Assembly: GCF_000166775.1 (NCBI RefSeq)
Contig: NC_014720.1
Location: forward strand, 1,792,501 to 1,856,500
Source: Caldicellulosiruptor kronotskyensis 2002
Lineage (GTDB): Bacteria > Bacillota > Thermoanaerobacteria > Caldicellulosiruptorales > Caldicellulosiruptoraceae
Reading direction: 5' to 3'
DNA: 64,000 nt
Shown here piece by piece: positions 4,046 through 41,587 of the stretch (position 1 is its first letter; every line of letters starts with the position of its first letter). The notes under the pieces are model-generated. The model did no database searches. It had not been told where the DNA came from and worked only from the letters and a program-made list of their open reading frames with translations. Both the position numbers and the translations under genes were made by a program.

Positions 4046-5719
4046 TTATCTCAAATTTTGTAATATTTTTCTTATAAATTCTTCATTTGACTTTGTTTGA
4101 GAAAGCATGCTAATAATTCTCTCTGTGGTTTCTGCTGTTCCAAAGTTAGAAAGTGCTCTTCTGATAGCATCAACAGCTGCTTTTTCCTCTTCAGACAGCA
4201 AAAGTTCCTCTCTTCGCGTCCCTGACTTGTTTATATCAATAGCCGGGAATATTCGTTTTTCAGAAAGTTTTCTGTCAAGGTGCAACTCCATGTTGCCAGT
4301 GCCCTTGAACTCTTCAAATATAACATCATCCATTCGCGATCCTGTTTCAATCAATGCTGTTGCAAGGATAGTAAGACTACCACCTTCTTTAAGGTTTCTT
4401 GCAGCCCCAAAAAACTTTTTAGGTTTATGAAGAGCATTCGGGTCAAGACCGCCAGAAAGTGTTCTGCCAGAAGGTGGTTCAACTAAGTTATAAGCACGTG
4501 CAAGCCTTGTCAAGCTATCTAACAAAATGACAACATCTTTTTTACACTCAACAAGTCTCATAGCCCTCTCTAAAACCATTTCAGCAACTTTTATGTGGTG
4601 TTCAGGAGTTTCATCAAATGTAGAGTAATGTATCTCTGCTTTTATTGAATCTTGCATATCAGTGACCTCTTCAGGTCTTTCATCAATGAGCAGTACAATC
4701 AAATGCAAATCATCATAGTTTGTCAGAATACTATTTGCTATCTTCTTTAATAGTGTAGTTTTACCTGCTTTTGGTGGTGCTACAATTAATCCTCTCTGAC
4801 CTCTTCCAATTGGCGCAATAAGGTCTATGAGTCTCACCGCTAAATCCTTAGGCTCATTTTTATTTTCCAAAATTATTCTTTTGTTTGGGAAAATAGGGGT
4901 AAGGTCTTCAAAAGGAGTGCGTTTTGCAACTTCTTCTGGTTTCATATCGTTGACGCTCTGAACATACAAAAGCCCTGCAAACTTCTCATTTTCTTTTGGA
5001 AGCCTAATGGGACCTCTAATTTTATCTCCGGTTTTGAGATTGAATTTTCTGATTTGAGATGGCGAAACATATATGTCGTTTGGGCCAGGAACGAACGAAT
5101 CATCGCGCAAAAATCCGTAACCGCCACCGCCACCAGGCTCATAAATTATCTCCAAAACTCCTTCGCCTATGCCGCCTATCTCCACTTTACCTTCAAGTTC
5201 TTTTAATTCTGGCGGAATTTCTATCTGCATTTTATCCTCTCTTTTTTCTTCTTTTTTAGGTTTTAACTCTATGACTTTACTCTCCTCTTTTTTCTCCTCA
5301 TTCAAACTAACATCTGTTGGCATTTCAGTTTTTTCTTCTTCTTTTTGTATGTGCTCAGACAAAGTCTGTTCTTTTATGTTATCTTCTCCTTCTTTATTTT
5401 CCATTTCACTTGGTCTTTCCTCTTCCTTCTCATTGGTCTCTCCAACCTTTGATTGTAGCTCCTCGCTCTTTAATTCAAAAGTCTGCTGAACTTCTGCAAT
5501 TTCTGATTTCTTTTTTCTTCCTCTTCTTCCTTTTTCTTTTTTGCCTATGCCCTCAAGAACTGTGGCATCTTCTTCTGAACTTCCCAGAAAATTTCTAATA
5601 GCTTCCATCAATTCACCTTTTTTGAGCAGAGAATATTTTTGAATACCCAGACTTTTTGCTATTTCTCTAAGTTCAATAATAGACTTTCCTTTTAAAAACT
5701 CATCAAGTGACCCAGGCAC
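4046..5719 (-). CDS. rho: Transcription termination factor Rho with charged insertion
   Basis: Hexameric RNA-dependent ATPase that ends transcription of untranslated RNA. The 557 residues show a Rho N-terminal helical domain (about 5-46), a low-complexity Lys/Glu-rich insertion (about 47-165), a cold-shock-like RNA-binding domain (about 170-255, with YGFLR at 201-205) and a RecA-like ATPase domain. The Walker A motif is APPKAGKTT (314-322), followed by [13 protein letters not shown] and the R-loop region [10 protein letters not shown]. It is longer than the roughly 420-residue E. coli protein because of the insertion. The start is GTG 5719-5717 with AGGAGG upstream. A promoter and leader precede it. 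Confidence 0.97.
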
Positions 5720-5967: not shown

Positions 5968-7191
5968 TTATATATTTAACATAGACAAAATCTTTGTTCT
6001 GAGCTCTTCATCATTCAGATCCAGCCGCGCTACCTTTTGTTCCACTGCCTTTTTTGCAACTGCTAAAGCCACCTCAAAGGCTACTTTCTTGTCAAAAGGC
6101 TTTGGAATTACATAATCTTCTGAAAGTTCCTCCTCTGCAACCTTAGCTATAGCCTCAGCAGCTGCTATCTTCATCTCATCTGTTATCCTTGTTGCCATAA
6201 CATCAAGTGCTCCTCTAAAAATACCTGGAAATGCCAACACGTTATTGACTTGGTTATTAAAATCAGACCTTCCTGTGCAAACAATCCTTGCTCCTGCCTT
6301 TTTTGCAATATCTGGCATAATCTCTGGTATCGGATTTGCCATTGCCATCACAATTGCATTGCTTGACATTTTCTTAACATCATCTTCACTCAGGACATTT
6401 GCAACAGAAAGACCAATAAACACATCAGCACCTTCAATTGCTTTTTTAAGAGAACCATTTATTCCTTCTCTATTAGTAATCTTTGCTATTTCTTCTTTAT
6501 ACTTGTTCATATCTTCTTCTCTTCCTTCGTATATGGCACCGTGCTTATCGCAAACAACAATATTTTTTGCTCCATACTTTAACAAAAGCTTTGCAGTGGC
6601 AATTCCAGCAGCACCAGCACCGTTTATGACTATTTTGACCTCTGATATTCTTTTTCCTACAATTTTAAGAGAATTTATCAAAGCAGCTAAGGCTACTACA
6701 GCAGTTCCATGCTGGTCGTCATGAAACACAGGAATATCAAGACTTTCAATTAGCTTTTGTTCAATCTCAAAACATGCTGGTGCAGCTATATCTTCTAAAT
6801 TTATTCCACCAAAAGATGTTTCAATAAGCTTTACTGTCTTTACAATCTCTTCAACATCTTTTGAGTCTATACAAATGGGGAATGCATCAACACCACCAAA
6901 CTGTTTAAACAAAATTGCCTTGCCTTCCATAACAGGCAAAGAGGCATGCACACCAATGTCTCCCAAACCCAAAACAGCTGTACCATTTGTTACCACTGCA
7001 ACCCAGTTGGATTTAGATGTATACTCATACACAAGAGACTTATTCTTTGCAATCTCTCTGCAAGGTTCTGCAACACCGGGTGTATAGTATATACTAAGGT
7101 CGTGCTGATTATCTACGCTAACTTTGCTTTTGAGGGCAATCTTCCCTCTGTGTTGCCTATGAAGTTGCAGTGCAAGCGTTTTTACATCCAT
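5968..7191 (-). CDS. Malic enzyme (NAD(P)-dependent malate dehydrogenase, decarboxylating)
   Basis: Converts L-malate to pyruvate and CO2 with reduction of NAD(P). The 407-residue protein is the short bacterial form without a phosphotransacetylase tail. YTPGVAEPC near residue 31 and GLGDIG with EGKAILFKQFGG near 75-98 belong to the malic N-terminal domain. INGAGAAGIATAK near residue 190 is the Rossmann nucleotide-binding loop. The ATG start is preceded by GGAG in GAGAGGAGAAA. It follows rarA by 51 bases and ends at a strong terminator, so it is the last gene of a glyA-rarA-malic enzyme transcript. Cofactor preference cannot be read safely. Confidence 0.95.
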   Translation of the reverse strand: MDVKTLALQLHRQHRGKIALKSKVSVDNQHDLSIYYTPGVAEPCREIAKNKSLVYEYTSKSNWVAVVTNGTAVLGLGDIGVHASLPVMEGKAILFKQFGGVDAFPICIDSKDVEEIVKTVKLIETSFGGINLEDIAAPACFEIEQKLIESLDIPVFHDDQHGTAVVALAALINSLKIVGKRISEVKIVINGAGAAGIATAKLLLKYGAKNIVVCDKHGAIYEGREEDMNKYKEEIAKITNREGINGSLKKAIEGADVFIGLSVANVLSEDDVKKMSSNAIVMAMANPIPEIMPDIAKKAGARIVCTGRSDFNNQVNNVLAFPGIFRGALDVMATRITDEMKIAAAEAIAKVAEEELSEDYVIPKPFDKKVAFEVALAVAKKAVEQKVARLDLNDEELRTKILSMLNI

Positions 7192-7242
7192 TTTTTATTT
7201 TCTCCTCTCACGCTCTTTTTATGCATGCAAATTTTTGACTTT

Positions 7243-8568
7243 TTAGCTGTCAAGCTGTTCTCTCAACTTTTTAATATATTCAGCTATAAACTTTTCTTTT
7301 CCCATTTCAGTTGGAAAATAGTATCTTCTACCAACAAGCTCATCAGGTAGATATTGCTGAGAAACCCAGTTATTATCAAAATCATGAGGATACAAGTACC
7401 CAATACCATGTCCAAGTTTTTCCTCTCCATGTGTTGCCATTCTAAGATGCATGGGAATACTTTTTATACTCACATTTTTAGCATCTTCCAAGGCTTTTTC
7501 AATTGCCAAATATGCAGAGTTGCTTTTTGGAGCACATGCAAGATAGATTGTCGCCTCAGACAAAATAATTCTTGCTTCTGGCATTCCCACAAATTCACAT
7601 GCCATTGCTGCAGAAACTGCAATTGTGAGCGCCATCGGATCTGCCAAACCAATATCTTCTGCTGCCAATATTATTAGTCTTCTTGCTATAAACTTTATAT
7701 CCTCTCCACTGTCAAGCATCTTTGCCAAGTAAAACAGCGCTGCATCCGGGTCAGAACCTCTCACACTTTTTATAAAGGCAGAAATGGTGTCATAGTGCAT
7801 ATCTCCTGTAGCATCGTACAATGCTGTTTTCCTATTTGAAAGATTAATGACAAATTCCTGGGAAATATAAATCTTGCCGTCATCGCGAGCTTGCGAAGAA
7901 TACACCACAGCTTCTAAGATGTTCAAAGCAACTCTTGCATCTCCACCTGAGAGCCTTGCTATGAGCTTTTTAGCATCCTCTTCTATTTGGATATTCAGCT
8001 CACCAAGTCCATTTTCTTTATCCGAAATTGCTCTTTCAATAATCTTTAATATATCTTCCTCTTTAAGTGGAAAAAGCTCAAATACCAAGGACCTTGACAC
8101 AAGTGCTTTATTGACTTCATAAAAAGGATTTTCAGTTGTTGCCCCAATCAAGATTATTACTCCTTCTTCTACAGAAGGCAAAAGGGCATCCTGCTGAAGT
8201 TTGTTAAACCTGTGTATCTCATCAATAAAGAGAATTGTCTTTTTACCTGTTTGAGTAAACTCAAACTTTGCTTCTTCTATAATCTTCTTAATATCGTTTA
8301 CACCTGCAATTGTAGCATTTATGGTTTTGAAAGTCTTGCCTGTAGCGTTAGCAATCACATGTGCAATTGTAGTTTTCCCAGTCCCAGGTGGCCCATAGAG
8401 AATTATTGAAGTAAGTCTATCGTTTTTAATTAAGTTATAAAGAGGTTTGCCCGGGCTTAATATGTGTTCCTGTCCCACAATTTCCTCAAGGCGTTTGGGT
8501 CTGAGCTTGTAAGCAAGAGGTGATTCCTTTTTTAACCTCTTTCCGCTAAGATATTGGAAAAAGTCCAT
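7243..8568 (-). CDS. rarA: Replication-associated recombination protein A (AAA+ ATPase)
   Basis: RarA/MgsA acts at stalled replication forks. The 441 residues include a clamp-loader-like AAA+ module with Walker A GPPGTGKTT (about 59-67), Walker B LFIDEIHR (about 112-119) and sensor 1 GATTENP, then the helical MgsA_C tetramerisation domain ending near EKFIAEYIKKL. Length and motifs match the family. It sits 17 bases after glyA, so it is co-transcribed with a one-carbon metabolism gene and malic enzyme; this grouping has no obvious functional logic. Confidence 0.96.
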   Translation of the reverse strand: MDFFQYLSGKRLKKESPLAYKLRPKRLEEIVGQEHILSPGKPLYNLIKNDRLTSIILYGPPGTGKTTIAHVIANATGKTFKTINATIAGVNDIKKIIEEAKFEFTQTGKKTILFIDEIHRFNKLQQDALLPSVEEGVIILIGATTENPFYEVNKALVSRSLVFELFPLKEEDILKIIERAISDKENGLGELNIQIEEDAKKLIARLSGGDARVALNILEAVVYSSQARDDGKIYISQEFVINLSNRKTALYDATGDMHYDTISAFIKSVRGSDPDAALFYLAKMLDSGEDIKFIARRLIILAAEDIGLADPMALTIAVSAAMACEFVGMPEARIILSEATIYLACAPKSNSAYLAIEKALEDAKNVSIKSIPMHLRMATHGEEKLGHGIGYLYPHDFDNNWVSQQYLPDELVGRRYYFPTEMGKEKFIAEYIKKLREQLDS

Positions 8569-8585
8569 TTTAATTCACCTTAAGC

Positions 8586-9833
8586 TTATTCATCAAATTC
8601 TTTATACAAAGGATGTTTTTCGCAAAGAGCTTTCACTCTGATCAAAATATTCTCTTTAGTATCAGAATTTGTTAAAGCATCATGGATAATATCTGCAACC
8701 TCAAGCATATCCTCTTCTTTAAACCCTCTGGTTGTGACAGCCGGCGTCCCAAGTCTTATCCCGCTTGTTATCATTGGACTTTGAGTATCAAAAGGAATCG
8801 CATTTTTGTTACATGTTATATTGTGCTCATCCAATATCTTTTCAGCATCTTTTCCTGTAATACCTTTGTTTCTCAAATCTACCAACATTAAATGATTATC
8901 AGTTCCACCACTCACAAGTCTGAATCCTCTTTCAATAAGTCTTGTACTCAGAGCTTTTGCATTTTTCAATATTTGAACCTGGTAGTTTTTGAACTCTTCT
9001 GTCATAGCTTCTTTGAGAGCAACAGCTTTTGCAGCTATTACATGTTCAAGCGGGCCACCTTGTATTCCAGGGAAAATGGTCTTGTCAATTAATTTTGCAT
9101 ACTTTTCTTTGCAAAGAATAAGACCACCGCGTGGACCTCTGAGCGTTTTGTGTGTTGTGGTTGTAACAAAATCAGCATATTCAACAGGTGATGGATGAAG
9201 CCCTGCAGCAACAAGCCCAGCAATGTGAGCCATATCTACCATCAAATATGCTCCAACCTCGTCAGCTATTTCCCTGAACTTTTTGAAATCGATGACTCTC
9301 GGATACGCCGATGCGCCTGCCAAGATAAGTTTTGGTCTGTGCTCCTTTGCAAGTTTTAAAACTTCATCATAATTTATTGTCTCTGTTTCAGGGTCAACCC
9401 CATATGAAACAATATTGTAAAGCTTTCCTGAAAAGTTCACAGGGCTGCCATGAGTCAGATGTCCACCATGCGAAAGATTCATTCCAAGGATGGTATCGCC
9501 CGGATTTAATACTGCAAAATACACAGCCATGTTAGCCTGTGCACCTGAGTGCGGCTGGACATTAGCATGTTCAGCTCCAAACAGTTTTTTAGCTCTCTCA
9601 ATTGCTATAGATTCAACAACATCGATATATTCGCATCCACCATAATATCTCTTTCCTGGATATCCTTCTGCATATTTATTTGTCAAAGGTGAACCCATTG
9701 CTGCCATTACTGCAATTGAAACAAAGTTCTCAGATGCAATAAGCTCAATTTTATTCTGCTGTCTTTTAAGCTCGCTCTTTATTGCCTCAGCTATTTCTGG
9801 ATCTGTATTTTTTACTAAATTGTAAAAATACAT
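8586..9833 (-). CDS. glyA: Serine hydroxymethyltransferase
   Basis: PLP enzyme that converts serine and tetrahydrofolate to glycine and methylene-tetrahydrofolate, the main one-carbon source. The family signature [14 protein letters not shown] contains the PLP-binding lysine, and the [10 protein letters not shown] and [13 protein letters not shown] motifs are present. I choose ATG 9833-9831 because AAAGGGAG then sits six bases upstream; an ATG two codons earlier (9839) abuts the ribosome binding site. This gives 415 residues. First gene of the operon with rarA and malic enzyme, driven by the promoter at 9920-9949. Confidence 0.96.
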
Positions 9834-9861
9834 TTTCATCTCCCTTTCCGAATATTTTATT

Positions 9862-9885
9862 GTAAAGGTATTCGAACGTTCATAC
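9862..9885 (-). promoter_or_regulatory. Imperfect palindrome in the glyA leader
   Basis: The 24-base block reads AAGGTAT (7), GAACGTTCGA (loop region, itself nearly palindromic) and ATACCTT (7). It lies between the glyA promoter and the ribosome binding site. It could be a repressor operator or a short mRNA hairpin; there is no T-run. The SOS (LexA) box of Firmicutes has spaced GAAC/GTTC halves, so this is not a standard LexA site. Confidence 0.45.
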
Positions 9886-9919
9886 CTTATGATTATACAT
9901 CAATTTCTTCTTTGTGTAT

Positions 9920-9949
9920 ATTATATTTTAGTCCAATTTTAAAAGTCAA
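9920..9949 (-). promoter_or_regulatory. Putative sigma-A promoter of glyA-rarA-malic enzyme
   Basis: On the minus strand, -35 TTGACT (9949-9944) and a perfect -10 TATAAT (9925-9920) have 18-base spacing. It leaves a leader of about 80 bases before glyA. Confidence 0.8.
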
Positions 9950-9982
9950 CCATTTGAACATATTTGTGCACAAAGTTTAATG

Positions 9983-10011
9983 TTCACATATTGGCACAAA
10001 TACTATATAAT
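9983..10011 (+). promoter_or_regulatory. Putative sigma-A promoter of the ThrE-type exporter genes
   Basis: -35 TTCACA (9983-9988) and perfect -10 TATAAT (10006-10011) have 17-base spacing. It lies back to back with the glyA promoter, 34 bases apart, and implies a 5' leader of only about 16 bases for the next gene. Confidence 0.78.
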
Positions 10012-10033
10012 CTTACTGTGAAAAATCAAGAAG

Positions 10034-10807
10034 ATGGAGGCTATTCTTAAAAAAATGATGAGCCCGAAACAACTTATAGAGATTGCGCTCTTAGCAGGTG
10101 AGATAATGCTTACAAACGGTGCTGAAACGTACAGAGTAGAAGATACAATGGTTAGAATATGCTCAAAAGGAAAATTAAAGCTTGCCGAAAGTTTTGTAAT
10201 ACCTACAGTGATTGTCGCAACAATTGCAGATGAAAATAATAATCTGGTTACTGTCTCAAAAAGAATTAAAAGTAGAACAATTGATCTTAATAAAATCTCA
10301 CTTGTAAATCAGTTTTCCCGCGATTTTCAAATCAAAGACTTCACTTATGATCAAGCAATTGAAATCTTGAATAAGATTAAAAATAAAAAAGGATATGCTT
10401 CCTATTTGCTACCATTTGCAGCAGCACTTGTGTGTTGTTTTTCCACAATTTTGTTTGGAGGGAAACTGAGAGATGCAATTTCAGCTTTTTTTGTAGGTTT
10501 TATCACTCAAACCATTTTAAACTATACTAACTCTAAAAACTTTTCTTATTTTATTTCATACATCATTGGAGGGGCTATCACTGCTTTGATAGCTATTATC
10601 ACAATAAGTCTCAATATAGGTATTCACTTAGATAAAATAATTATTGGTTCTGTAATGATAATGACACCAGGTGTTGCAATTACTAATGCAATAAGAGATA
10701 CTATTGCAGGTGATCTTTTATCTGGGGTTGCAAGAGGAGTTGAAGCTTTTTTAATAGCTGTGTTCATCGCAACAGGAGCTGGTATAGCACTCAGTCTTTT
10801 TAGATAA
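10034..10807 (+). CDS. Threonine/serine exporter, ThrE N-terminal half (DUF1212, YjjP-like)
   Basis: Membrane protein of 257 residues. A soluble N-terminal part carries the conserved GEIMLTNGAETYRVEDT motif (about 21-37), followed by about five membrane segments from residue 120 to the end. In Corynebacterium ThrE both halves are one polypeptide; here, as in many Firmicutes and in E. coli YjjPB, they are two genes. The start is uncertain: ATG 10034 has only a weak AAGAAG upstream, while ATG 10055 has GGAGG fourteen bases away. It forms a two-gene operon with the next gene, 21 bases downstream. Confidence 0.88.
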   Translation: MEAILKKMMSPKQLIEIALLAGEIMLTNGAETYRVEDTMVRICSKGKLKLAESFVIPTVIVATIADENNNLVTVSKRIKSRTIDLNKISLVNQFSRDFQIKDFTYDQAIEILNKIKNKKGYASYLLPFAAALVCCFSTILFGGKLRDAISAFFVGFITQTILNYTNSKNFSYFISYIIGGAITALIAIITISLNIGIHLDKIIIGSVMIMTPGVAITNAIRDTIAGDLLSGVARGVEAFLIAVFIATGAGIALSLFR

Positions 10808-13886: not shown

Positions 13887-14804
13887 CTATATACTTGCTT
13901 TGCAAAATAAAGCTTTTACATACTCAACATCTTGCGTTATTTGGTTTTTAAGTTCATCTATATTTGAAAATTTTTTCTCTTCACGCACAAAGTCAATAAA
14001 TTCTATTTTAACTCGCTTCCCATACATGTCCTTATCAACACCCAATACGTGCGTCTCTATCTTTATATTATCTGAGGTTGAAACAGTGGGGTTTGTCCCT
14101 ACATTGGTTATGGACAAATACCTCTTATCATCAATAATTGTATTTGTGACATATACACCTTTCTTTGGTACTATCTTTTCTTTATCAAATTTTATGTTAA
14201 TGGTTGGAAAACCCATCTTTTTCCCTAACCTGTTACCTCTTTTTACAGTACCACTAATGAAAAAGTGAAAGCCAAGCATGCAATTCGCAAGTTTTATATT
14301 CCCCTCAAGTATTAACCTTCGGATAAGCGTGCTGCTCACAATGTGCTCTTGGTACATCACCGGGTCAATCACTATACACTCTCGACCAAACTGGTAAAGT
14401 TTTTCACATAGATACTTGCTATCTCCCTCTGCCATGTATCCGAACGTAAAGTCATACCCTACAACTACCACTGATACATTTAACTTATCAATTAGAATTT
14501 CCTCAATAAACCTATCTTTATCCATCTGCATTATCTTTTTATTAAATTCTATAAAATACACATCATCTATGCCATAATTTCTGAAAAATTCTAATCTTTC
14601 CTCATTTGTAAGTATATACTTTGTATCAAAACCAAGAAGGTTGTCAGGATGATTTTTAAAAGTAAAAACAACTTTTTTTATACCGCTGGCATTTGCATTT
14701 AAAACCTCAAACAACTTTTTATGACCTATATGAAAGCCGTCAAAAAATCCAAGCGCAACAGCTGGGTTATCGTATCTTTTTTCTACAATCTCATAAACAT
14801 TCAT
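13887..14804 (-). CDS. ribF: Bifunctional riboflavin kinase / FAD synthetase
   Basis: Phosphorylates riboflavin to FMN and adenylates FMN to FAD. Of 305 residues, the N-terminal adenylyltransferase domain has GFFDGFHIGHKKL (19-31) and a STLIRR motif near 165. The C-terminal riboflavin kinase domain has GNRLGKKMGFPTINI near 190-205. It overlaps the end of truB by 14 bases, showing tight translational coupling within the rimP operon. Confidence 0.95.
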   Translation of the reverse strand: MNVYEIVEKRYDNPAVALGFFDGFHIGHKKLFEVLNANASGIKKVVFTFKNHPDNLLGFDTKYILTNEERLEFFRNYGIDDVYFIEFNKKIMQMDKDRFIEEILIDKLNVSVVVVGYDFTFGYMAEGDSKYLCEKLYQFGRECIVIDPVMYQEHIVSSTLIRRLILEGNIKLANCMLGFHFFISGTVKRGNRLGKKMGFPTINIKFDKEKIVPKKGVYVTNTIIDDKRYLSITNVGTNPTVSTSDNIKIETHVLGVDKDMYGKRVKIEFIDFVREEKKFSNIDELKNQITQDVEYVKALFCKASI

Positions 14805-38998: not shown

Positions 38999-39895
38999 TT
39001 ACTTTAAAAGATATTTCTCTTTTCTCTCTTTTAATTTCTCACCATTTATGAGCACCAAGCTGCCCTGCTTGAATTTTAGTTTTTTGGCTAAGTATTCGCA
39101 TTTTATTTTCAAAAGATAAAAAACATTGGGTTGAACATCTTCAAAGTCATCCACAGTCTCAAAGTTTGCCTGCCCTTTTGAAATAATCACATCAGCAGTA
39201 GATATAAGATTTTTGAGTTGCTCAGAAATAAAGTCTTTTGGAACTCCCAAAAGCCCTGCTCCGCTCTCAACAACATTTGCTATTCTGCTCATAGAAACTT
39301 CCTCTGCATCTTCTAACGTAGCATCGTTAAGTACGGGCTTAGACTTCACAATGTAATAAACATTTTTCCCCATTTTATTTAAAATTTCCACCAATACCTT
39401 ATCAAACACAATCTCACCTGCATTATCACCGACAATCACTACATCTTTTGCCTTCTCAATCTTTTCCTTTAATAGAGGATAGTCATCAATCCAAAATCCA
39501 AAATCAAACGCGTGTTCTAATTCCTTATCAATATCAAAATCTCTCTGAATCCCTAAGTCAATAACATTGCCTGCAACAGAAACTTTCAACGCTTCATAAA
39601 GAGTATCATCAGCTGTTTGTACCTTTTCTTTCACTCTTGGATACAGTTCAAGTGCCAATTTGTTTGAGAATTTTTTCGCTTCATAATATGGGTCTGGATT
39701 ATTTATATACTCATATGTTTTTAGCAATACAAGTGAAGAGTTATACGCCGGTGAGTCAGAAGGCTCCAAAGTTTTTATGAAATCCATGAGATTATAGAGC
39801 ACTTCTATCTTTTTTTCATCGGGAACTTTTATCATCTCCATACACGAAACTGCCTGTTTTAGGTAGCAGTGAATGCAATCAACAAGGCTCTTCAA
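38999..39895 (-). CDS. DUF89 / ARMT1-like damage-control phosphatase family protein
   Basis: 298 residues from TTG 39895-39893, opening LKSLVDCIHCYLKQAV, with the N-terminal CxxC (DCIHC) of the family. VGDNAGEIVFDKVL (metal-binding aspartate and asparagine) and LNDATLEDA follow, and ISKGQANFETV near the C-terminus. Family members are metal-dependent phosphatases proposed to remove damaged or excess sugar and cofactor phosphates. AAAGGGAG lies eleven bases upstream of the TTG. A longer frame running to 40012 would add a hydrophobic stretch across the promoter and tRNA leader; I reject it. Confidence 0.85.
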   Translation of the reverse strand: MKSLVDCIHCYLKQAVSCMEMIKVPDEKKIEVLYNLMDFIKTLEPSDSPAYNSSLVLLKTYEYINNPDPYYEAKKFSNKLALELYPRVKEKVQTADDTLYEALKVSVAGNVIDLGIQRDFDIDKELEHAFDFGFWIDDYPLLKEKIEKAKDVVIVGDNAGEIVFDKVLVEILNKMGKNVYYIVKSKPVLNDATLEDAEEVSMSRIANVVESGAGLLGVPKDFISEQLKNLISTADVIISKGQANFETVDDFEDVQPNVFYLLKIKCEYLAKKLKFKQGSLVLINGEKLKERKEKYLLK

Positions 39896-39947
39896 TTTAA
39901 AGCTCACTCCCTTTGAAGTTAAATTCTTTAGCCAAGATACAAAATAA

Positions 39948-39976
39948 AGTATTAATAACTCTTGATTTGTTGTCAA
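39948..39976 (-). promoter_or_regulatory. Putative promoter of the DUF89 gene
   Basis: On the minus strand, perfect -35 TTGACA (39976-39971), 17 bases, -10 AATACT (39953-39948). It overlaps the plus-strand tRNA promoter, so the two must compete for RNA polymerase. Confidence 0.6.
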
Positions 39977-39991
39977 GAAGAATATTATAAT
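39962..39991 (+). promoter_or_regulatory. Putative promoter of tRNA-Thr
   Basis: -35 TTGATT (39962-39967), 18 bases, perfect -10 TATAAT (39986-39991). Transcription would start near 39998, inside an 18-bp palindrome. Confidence 0.7.
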
Positions 39992-39995
39992 TGTA

Positions 39996-40013
39996 TATGA
40001 CATATATGTCATA
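39996..40013. promoter_or_regulatory. 18-bp perfect palindrome between promoter and tRNA-Thr
   Basis: TATGACATATATGTCATA is its own reverse complement. It sits immediately downstream of the tRNA -10 box and upstream of the mature tRNA 5' end (40017). It may be an operator, or a hairpin at the 5' end of the tRNA precursor. Confidence 0.6.
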
Positions 40014-40016
40014 CGC

Positions 40017-40091
40017 GCTCCATTAGCTCAGTGGCAGAGCAGTCGATTCGTAATCGACCGGTCGGGGGTTCGAATCCCCCATGGAGCTCCA
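40017..40091 (+). tRNA. tRNA-Thr (anticodon CGT)
   Basis: A 75-base cloverleaf with encoded CCA. Acceptor GCTCCAT pairs with ATGGAGC, D-arm around AGCTCAGTGGCAGAGC, anticodon stem GTCGA/TCGAC with loop TTCGTAA (anticodon CGT, reads ACG), T-arm CGGGGGTTCGAATCCCCC-like. Its 3' end is followed by the scar of an integrated element, so it probably served as an attachment site. Confidence 0.96.
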
Positions 40092-40141
40092 AGAAAATCA
40101 AGGGATTTGAGGATAGGTAAAATATAACAAGTGCGTTTTTT

Positions 40142-40180
40142 ACAGCTACCTTACAGCTACCAGAGAACAGCTACCAGAGA
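40142..40180 (+). repeat. Direct repeats ACAGCTACC, arm-site-like, next to tRNA-Thr
   Basis: ACAGCTACC occurs three times in the same orientation (40142-40150, 40153-40161, 40167-40175). The last two belong to a tandem 14-base unit ACAGCTACCAGAGA (40153-40166, 40167-40180). They lie 50-90 bases from the tRNA 3' end and next to an integrase remnant. Tyrosine integrases of phages and conjugative elements bind such short direct repeats as arm-type sites; that assignment is inference. Confidence 0.75.
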
Positions 40181-40210
40181 CTCTGTAAAATTTCGGGGTA
40201 ACTACTCTAT

Positions 40211-40393
40211 CTATTTTAGTGCCTTTGCTATCTTCTGTGCAACTTTTTTCTTAATCTTATCATAGAGATGCTGTCGCTTTTTTCTGGGCCGTTTTCATCT
40301 CTTCCCATTGTGATTTATCCGCACCAAAACCCAGCTTTCCTTATGGTAAATGCTACCCTCATTATTCTCTCTCTTTTTGGGCTTTGCAGACAT
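40211..40393 (-). pseudogene. Remnant of a tyrosine integrase (N-terminus only)
   Basis: ATG 40393-40391 opens a frame reading MSAKPKKRENNEGSIYHKES and NHNGKR, the usual N-terminus of arm-binding domains in phage-type tyrosine recombinases (basic residues, then G-S-I-Y, then N-G-K-R). Codon 33 is TGA; the frame then continues as KRPRKKRQ through Lys-rich codons to TAG at codon 61 (40213-40211). Nothing of the catalytic domain remains before the tRNA. The AGAGGTG site before the ATG overlaps the end of the Uma2 gene. With the direct repeats and the tRNA, it marks an old integration event. Confidence 0.75.
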
Positions 40394-40394
40394 A

Positions 40395-40976
40395 TTATAA
40401 CACCTCTTTGATTTGGGTAAAGTCAATTATAAGGTCTTCAAAAATCCTAACCTTGACCTTGTAATTGAAGGTGTAAACTTCTGGTGGCAGATAATCTTCA
40501 TTGTTTTTGAGTCTGTACACCAAGATTGTTTGATTATTAGGATTGACAATCCAATATTCTTTAATCTTAAATTGTGTATAAAGATTTAGTTTTCGGATAT
40601 AGTCATGCGAAAAATTGCTCTCAGATACAACTTCAATTATCATTTCAGGAGATCCAACACAGCCTTTATCAGTAAGCTTTTTCTTGTCGCAAATAATTGA
40701 AATATCAGGCTGTACAACGTTGATTGCCTGTTTTTCGTCCTGCCCTTCCTCAATTAAGACTACATCAAATGGAGCTGTGTAAACTTTGCAGGGCTTGTTG
40801 TTTTGCTTAATATAATTTCCAATGATTAGTGTAAGTTCGAAAATAATCTCTTGGTGTACCCTTGACGGTGCAGGGCTCAAATCATAGATGACACCTTCTA
40901 TAAGCTCTACTCTTGCGTCTTGTGGCAGTTCAAGATAATCTGCATAAGTATAAACCTTAGATATCCTTGCTTCCAT
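40395..40976 (-). CDS. Uma2-family (DUF820) PD-(D/E)XK nuclease-like protein
   Basis: 193 residues of the Uma2 family, which has a restriction-endonuclease-like fold. Visible motifs are YADYLELPQDARVELIEGVIY near the N-terminus, the acidic motif VQPDISII (about 98-105) and PEMIIEVVSES (about 118-128), the likely metal-binding core. The cellular function of these proteins is not known; they are numerous in cyanobacteria and thermophilic Firmicutes and often lie in mobile regions. The ribosome binding site is AAGGTGATTTAA-like. Downstream, its stop codon is one base from the integrase remnant. Confidence 0.85.
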   Translation of the reverse strand: MEARISKVYTYADYLELPQDARVELIEGVIYDLSPAPSRVHQEIIFELTLIIGNYIKQNNKPCKVYTAPFDVVLIEEGQDEKQAINVVQPDISIICDKKKLTDKGCVGSPEMIIEVVSESNFSHDYIRKLNLYTQFKIKEYWIVNPNNQTILVYRLKNNEDYLPPEVYTFNYKVKVRIFEDLIIDFTQIKEVL

Positions 40977-41125
40977 TTAAATCACCTTTTTCTCAGATTT
41001 TTGTTCATAAGATTTACATTTATCAGCTCTACTTTCCATAATGAAATTACATACTTAAGATATTCTATCATATTGTAAAAAGTCTGTCTTTATCTTCACC
41101 TGCTAAAAATACTTTAAAAACAAAA

Positions 41126-41163
41126 ACCGCCATCTTTGTTGAATTTACAATACAGATGGCGGT
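41126..41163 (-). terminator. Terminator after the CoA-binding protein gene
   Basis: ACCGCCATCT (41126-41135) pairs with AGATGGCGGT (41154-41163). On the minus strand it is followed by TTTTTGTTTTT. It starts seven bases after the stop codon of the gene at 41171. The remaining bases 40977-41125 are AT-rich, with only a weak promoter-like pair for the Uma2 gene. Confidence 0.88.
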
Positions 41164-41170
41164 AAATCTT

Positions 41171-41587
41171 CTAAAAATTATTTTTGTGGTTTAATGCAAC
41201 CAAAACACATGCGTTATAAATTGGAACTATACTATTCTTTTCACATAGCTCAACAAGCTCACTGCTTTCGGCTCCTGGCTGAAACCAAACATACTTTACT
41301 CCTATTTTTGTTGCCTGTTCGATATATAATTTTCCTCTTTTTGGTGAAACAACCATGCTCACGCAATCTATTCTCTGATTTAAATCCAACAATGTCTTGT
41401 ATACCTTGTCATCCTCAATCTCATCATACAAAGGATTTATAGCAAACACATTGTAGCCTTTCTCTTTGAGCTTTTTGTAGACCATGTATCCATATTTTTG
41501 TTTGTTTGGTGTTGCACCTACCACAGCCCAGTTTTTAAAACTCAACGCTGACGCAATAACTTCTGAATTCACATCTTTCCACCTCAT
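41171..41587 (-). CDS. CoA-binding domain protein (YccU-like)
   Basis: 138 residues forming one CoA_binding_2 Rossmann domain. WAVVGATPNKQKYGYMVYKKL (about 20-40) is the nucleotide loop, then FAINP, SMVVSP and WFQPGAES, all typical of the YccU group. Homologues bind CoA or related nucleotides, but no reaction is known. It overlaps the preceding gene by 4 bases and ends at a strong terminator. Confidence 0.88.
   Translation of the reverse strand: MRWKDVNSEVIASALSFKNWAVVGATPNKQKYGYMVYKKLKEKGYNVFAINPLYDEIEDDKVYKTLLDLNQRIDCVSMVVSPKRGKLYIEQATKIGVKYVWFQPGAESSELVELCEKNSIVPIYNACVLVALNHKNNF

Follow-up and report, generated by a model that had tools for sequence, protein, structure and literature searches.

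The window analysed here is a stretch of 64,000 nucleotides (positions 1792501-1856500 of NC_014720.1) from the closed 2.84 Mb genome of the heat-loving bacterium Caldicellulosiruptor kronotskyensis 2002, labelled G000 in what follows. ARAGORN identifies on its forward strand a tRNA-Thr(CGT) gene (40017..40091) which is still whole. Upstream lies an ARMT1-like open reading frame (38999-40012) whose start may be placed too early; the aligned stretch carries a stop in four congeners. The 3' part of the tRNA gene, 45 bp that take in everything from the anticodon loop onward (40047..40091, forward strand), forms an attL/attB core, copied as attR in Caldicellulosiruptor bescii and in genomes G003 and G011. 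Directly downstream, positions 40092..40207 (forward strand) align with the left ends of intact elements, at 84% identity with that of C. bescii, so that the locus displays what is expected of a tRNA-targeted element: a tRNA gene at one end, with an element left end behind it.

Within this arm a motif search combined with comparison of relatives finds ACAGCTACC three times, at 40142, 40153 and 40167 (40142..40175, forward strand), and no further copy exists anywhere in the 64 kb. Shuffled sequence contains the motif 0.23 times on average, and three copies in 0 of 100 shuffles. The first-pass annotation of this DNA, made from its letters alone, had described arm-site-like direct repeats at this place. 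Very probably they are integrase arm sites, because the motif is present at both ends of the intact elements, in two copies at the left end and three at the right. A motif arranged at two ends in this way is the typical look of the arm sites of tyrosine integrases. The third copy of the window (40167), however, is a tandem duplication of 14 bp private to this genome; the other left ends in the alignment all lack it. Arm sites shared by both ends are seen in relatives that have both ends, while the window keeps the left set only.

On the reverse strand, positions 40215..40393 hold what is left of an integrase gene, codons 1 to about 59, recognized by congener homology and alignment. Compared with the corresponding part of intact congener integrases (404-410 residues), the fragment shows 47-50% identity (E from 1e-8 to 1.7e-9), so the reading of an integrase N-terminus was correct, and its DNA is about 80% identical to that of intact elements. 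The first-pass annotation had named, as what would refute it, a failure of the remnant to match tyrosine integrases in a protein search with stop codons allowed; this check was made and the reading survived it. This identification rests on congener relatives and not on profiles: searched against Pfam and PHROGs, the 60-residue fragment finds no integrase, because it is too short and frame-shifted, whereas a full-length relative matches PF00589. A tyrosine integrase does stand next to attL, as the first reading supposed, but as codons 1-59 only, and dead. Three lesions disable it, an insertion (+1), a change of CAA to TAA that is nonsense in the restored frame, and another insertion (+2); to these a deletion of about 1.03 kb must be added. 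The internal TGA that had been taken as its lesion is an artefact of frame; in intact copies the same bases lie out of frame. A search of phage DNA gave no match and a scan of genome contigs with the integrase found nothing. Had the resemblance to an integrase arisen by chance, next to repeats unrelated to any element, the silence of Pfam and PHROGs would be natural. Yet to either side of a single deletion the DNA aligns collinearly with intact elements, and the arm motif stands at both ends of those elements, which reduces the probability of such a coincidence to practically nothing.

That deletion has its junction at 40207..40215. In the alignment it runs from about codon 60 of the integrase to just beyond its stop codon, removing codons ~60-400, and the remnant, interrupted at codon ~59, continues into a stop created by the junction. 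In C. bescii and G003 the heptamer TACTCCA is found at both ends of the segment that the window has lost. This microhomology is suggestive only, because the junction of the window has mutated since.

What follows is not dead. Positions 40395..40976 (reverse strand) code for an intact protein of 193 residues of the Uma2 family, established by domain match and by comparison with relatives: it matches PF05685 over its full length (E 1.5e-29, 103 bits for a cut-off of 27) and PDC-S03, a candidate single-gene defence family of PADLOC (E 2e-54). By its annotation, Uma2 is a family of putative restriction endonucleases; from this membership, the most likely job of the protein would be that of a stand-alone nuclease directed against incoming DNA. 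The family is large, and no tested function was found in the literature searched under that name; it merits a direct test. Matches in the PDB to TAL effector repeats were discarded as spurious, being driven by repeats over a stretch of 40 residues. A scan of viral contigs with Uma2 found nothing, and promoter-like matches do not exceed chance.

Upstream of Uma2 there remain 139 bp (40977..41115) before the chromosomal backbone resumes, with a hairpin and a gene for a CoA-binding protein (41116..41587), which in C. bescii come directly after attR. The 139 bp are common to G004, G005, G006 and G009 (79-91% identity), and in part to G001; a convincing match in the intact elements was not found. 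They are probably the residue of an older element, and the junction on this side of Uma2 is old. The scar extends over about 40092-41115, larger than first described, and it is partly alive, since it contains Uma2.

The key to this arrangement is found in a sister species. Genome G002, whose plasmid is identical to NC_012036.1 of C. bescii DSM 6725, harbours at the orthologous tRNA-Thr(CGT) (locus L069) an intact element of about 12 kb. Its integrase is a complete frame of 409 codons with a PF00589 match, accompanied by Uma2, an XRE-type regulator, a primase/helicase (DUF927 with a Cch helix-turn-helix domain), a weak match to a small terminase, a sigma factor and an antitoxin of the HicB type. 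Some 12 kb beyond the tRNA gene its 3' part, starting with the anticodon loop, recurs as a 45-bp copy that marks attR, after which the chromosome resumes; about 100 bp inside attR lies CTACAGCTACTACAGCTACACTACAGCTACC, three copies of the arm motif, of which the left end has two. G003 and G011 carry elements of this kind too, both with attR and both with a frame-shifted integrase, while G008 is an empty site where the tRNA is followed directly by the hairpin and the backbone gene. The first-pass annotation had recommended looking for an intact element in related genomes, and the C. bescii copy, together with G003 and G011, bears out the order it had proposed, namely tRNA with the attachment site, then arm sites, then integrase. 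Its analogy with phages and integrative conjugative elements was too specific: among the ten main proteins that the C. bescii element encodes there is no capsid, tail or large terminase, apart from the weak small-terminase-like match, and no relaxase or gene for mating-pair formation or conjugation.

Window and C. bescii element share the tRNA, the left end, the arm sites and the order of integrase and Uma2. The window is without integrase codons ~60-400, the XRE regulator, the Cch-like primase/helicase, the small-terminase-like protein, the sigma factor, HicB and attR, and its Uma2 is only 77% identical to that of the C. bescii element. It had also been suggested to search the window's own genome for a second 3' end of the tRNA; this genome-wide search returned no second core, so that the window holds a remnant and not an element. 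The first-pass view that nothing more of the element remains holds for attR and some 10 kb, but not for Uma2, a whole gene that survives next to the integrase. Scars at tRNA genes are common, and this one is of a well-known kind. Genomic islands of tRNA genes with tyrosine integrases have been catalogued by Islander (PMC4383910), and the window resembles them in that the target is restored, the displaced 3' fragment serves as the mark of the far end and the integrase stands by the tRNA; unlike them, it keeps only the near end, having lost the far end and most genes. An earlier description of this particular element family was not found.

Does Uma2 belong to the element, or did the element merely settle beside a resident gene of the host? 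In G000, G005, G006 and G009 Uma2 does border the chromosomal backbone, as a resident would. However, the copies of C. bescii, G003 and G011 are enclosed by attL and attR and have the integrase as neighbour, Uma2 adjoins the integrase at other tRNA genes too, and the empty site of G008 has no Uma2. A resident origin is for these reasons very improbable, and the window gene belongs to the element.

We find it very likely that the locus records the following succession of events. An element of about 12 kb with a tyrosine integrase entered the part of tRNA-Thr(CGT) that begins at the anticodon loop and reaches the 3' end, restoring the tRNA, as the intact relatives show. One deletion, visible in the alignment, took the catalytic part of the integrase, and a separate one, also visible there, the whole stretch that begins upstream of Uma2 and includes attR. 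The first-pass annotation had left a choice between a decayed end and a deletion junction; the locus combines both, with at least two deletions. Because the integrase and attR are lost, this end of the element would no longer be able to excise by itself. Since then the integrase fragment has decayed freely, and the adjoining Uma2 has been kept by purifying selection, probably through some benefit to the cell.

The last step can be examined within the scar itself by comparing integrase and Uma2 with one common set of six reference loci, restricting the count to sites where the references agree and scoring the changes private to the window. At codon positions 1 and 2 the integrase remnant has 15 such changes in 105 sites, and Uma2 8 in 304 (Fisher p 4e-5); at third positions the rates are equal (3 in 27 and 7 in 65). 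With rates that differ at positions 1 and 2 and are equal at the third, the remnant has decayed freely and Uma2 has been held under purifying selection. Equal third-position rates also mean that both genes accumulated changes over a similar time. Some of the constraint on Uma2 may predate its stranding, from the time when the copy was mobile; the equality at third positions makes this less probable for the window copy. Among the Uma2 copies of the tRNA-Thr site, pairwise dN/dS lies at 0.08-0.19, near-identical pairs excepted; the G005/G006 pair gives 0.53, based on six changes only. We have here a control inside one scar, two adjacent genes of an element, one decaying and the other constrained.

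A purely neutral scar, where Uma2 would simply be the last gene yet to decay, must be weighed against this. The site is a hotspot that is often refilled, so that copies may be young, and Uma2 is broken at several sites (the tRNA-Thr locus of G010, G002 near 2138k and G006 near 839k, with 12 residues missing from the tRNA-Arg(TCT) copy of G004). Nevertheless, position-specific rates differ between integrase and Uma2 within the same scar; three disabling lesions in about 180 nt of integrase would scale to about ten in the 582 nt of Uma2, which has none; and Uma2 is intact at most of the copies flanking a tRNA. Neutral survival is accordingly improbable, and Uma2 is probably kept because it is useful to the cell.

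The age of the scar is less easily read. Its right junction is common to G000, G005, G006 and G009, yet the copies of G005, G006 and G009 are not the nearest relatives of the window's Uma2, which differs from them by a dS of 0.61-0.76, against 0.21-0.51 for the backbone. Because of this, the left and right parts of the scar may have different histories, and with part of the locus exchanged its age becomes uncertain. A single ancestral scar in these four genomes was considered and set aside: all have the junction in common, but simple vertical descent of the left part finds no support in the tree of Uma2 or in its dS values. C. bescii, a sister species with a backbone dS of 0.045, has a Uma2 of another lineage here (dS 1.2), and the tRNA-Thr locus has therefore been refilled or recombined. 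G005 and G006 differ in Uma2 by a dS of 0.017 for a backbone dS of 0.337, and a value so far below the backbone suggests a recent exchange of Uma2 between the two species. Their tRNA-Thr loci (L072, L073) have an ABC-transporter-like insert between tRNA-Thr and Uma2. In G010 the tRNA-Thr (L077/L078, G010:C1:898000-937800) is occupied by a prophage of about 28 kb, with terminase- and structural-gene-like frames and its own 379-residue integrase, in tandem with an older element whose integrase is intact and whose Uma2 is interrupted.

How general this outcome is was explored by searching 12 genomes with the C-terminal tail of the integrase alone (its last 28 codons), which uncovered 16 loci in 11 of them. 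The integrase retains a full-length open frame at four of the 16, and the Uma2 next to the tail is intact at ten. Damaged integrase with intact Uma2 occurs at seven loci, the reverse at one and both intact at three, in a tally that is small and drawn from related genomes that are not independent. Loss of the integrase by deletion with retention of Uma2 is observed at tRNA-Thr(CGT), tRNA-Arg(ACG) and tRNA-Arg(TCT). Counted from the Uma2 start as 1, the deletion endpoints are 762|1794 in the window, 991|1688 in G009, 653|1688 in G007, 1058|1661 in G006, 648|1427 in G005, 582|1716 in both G000 and C. bescii, and 635-639|1732-1762 at tRNA-Arg(TCT); since the endpoints within the integrase gene differ, several of these deletions are independent. 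At tRNA-Arg(ACG) of G005, G008, G009 and G010 the integrase has gone altogether, and Uma2 ends some 10-50 bp from the tRNA.

The interest of the locus lies in a live gene beside a scar and in its repetition across the genus: a set of a dozen species shows the same fate, integrase lost and Uma2 kept, at three tRNA genes. This makes it testable which cargo a host keeps once a mobile element has been disarmed. One might go further and view these elements as one-way vehicles, bringing a stand-alone candidate defence nuclease to tRNA-Thr(CGT), tRNA-Arg(ACG) and tRNA-Arg(TCT), where selection would repeatedly favour deletions by which the integrase is destroyed and Uma2 becomes fixed in the chromosome. 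This is a tentative idea, which we rate as rather unlikely. If it were true, defence genes would build up tRNA by tRNA across the genus.

Other loci deserve mention. The window's own genome has a second scar by tRNA-Arg(ACG) (L111, G000:C1:854907-855557), with an intact Uma2 joined directly to the last 23 codons of the integrase; C. bescii shows the same junction near 2138422, there with two stops in Uma2. At tRNA-Arg(TCG) of the same genome (L081, G000:C1:918000-936000, at 4128-4175 and 14212-14287 of that locus) lies an apparently complete element of about 10 kb; at its far end the 3' end of the tRNA is repeated perfectly over 48 bp, and inside it is the tyrosine integrase of L005. Finally, L083 of G004 (6945-9678) contains a second integrase, about 57% identical to that of C. 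bescii and placed back to back with the family integrase, and at L089 of G002 (8920-10491) an integrase of that same kind adjoins the integrase tail.
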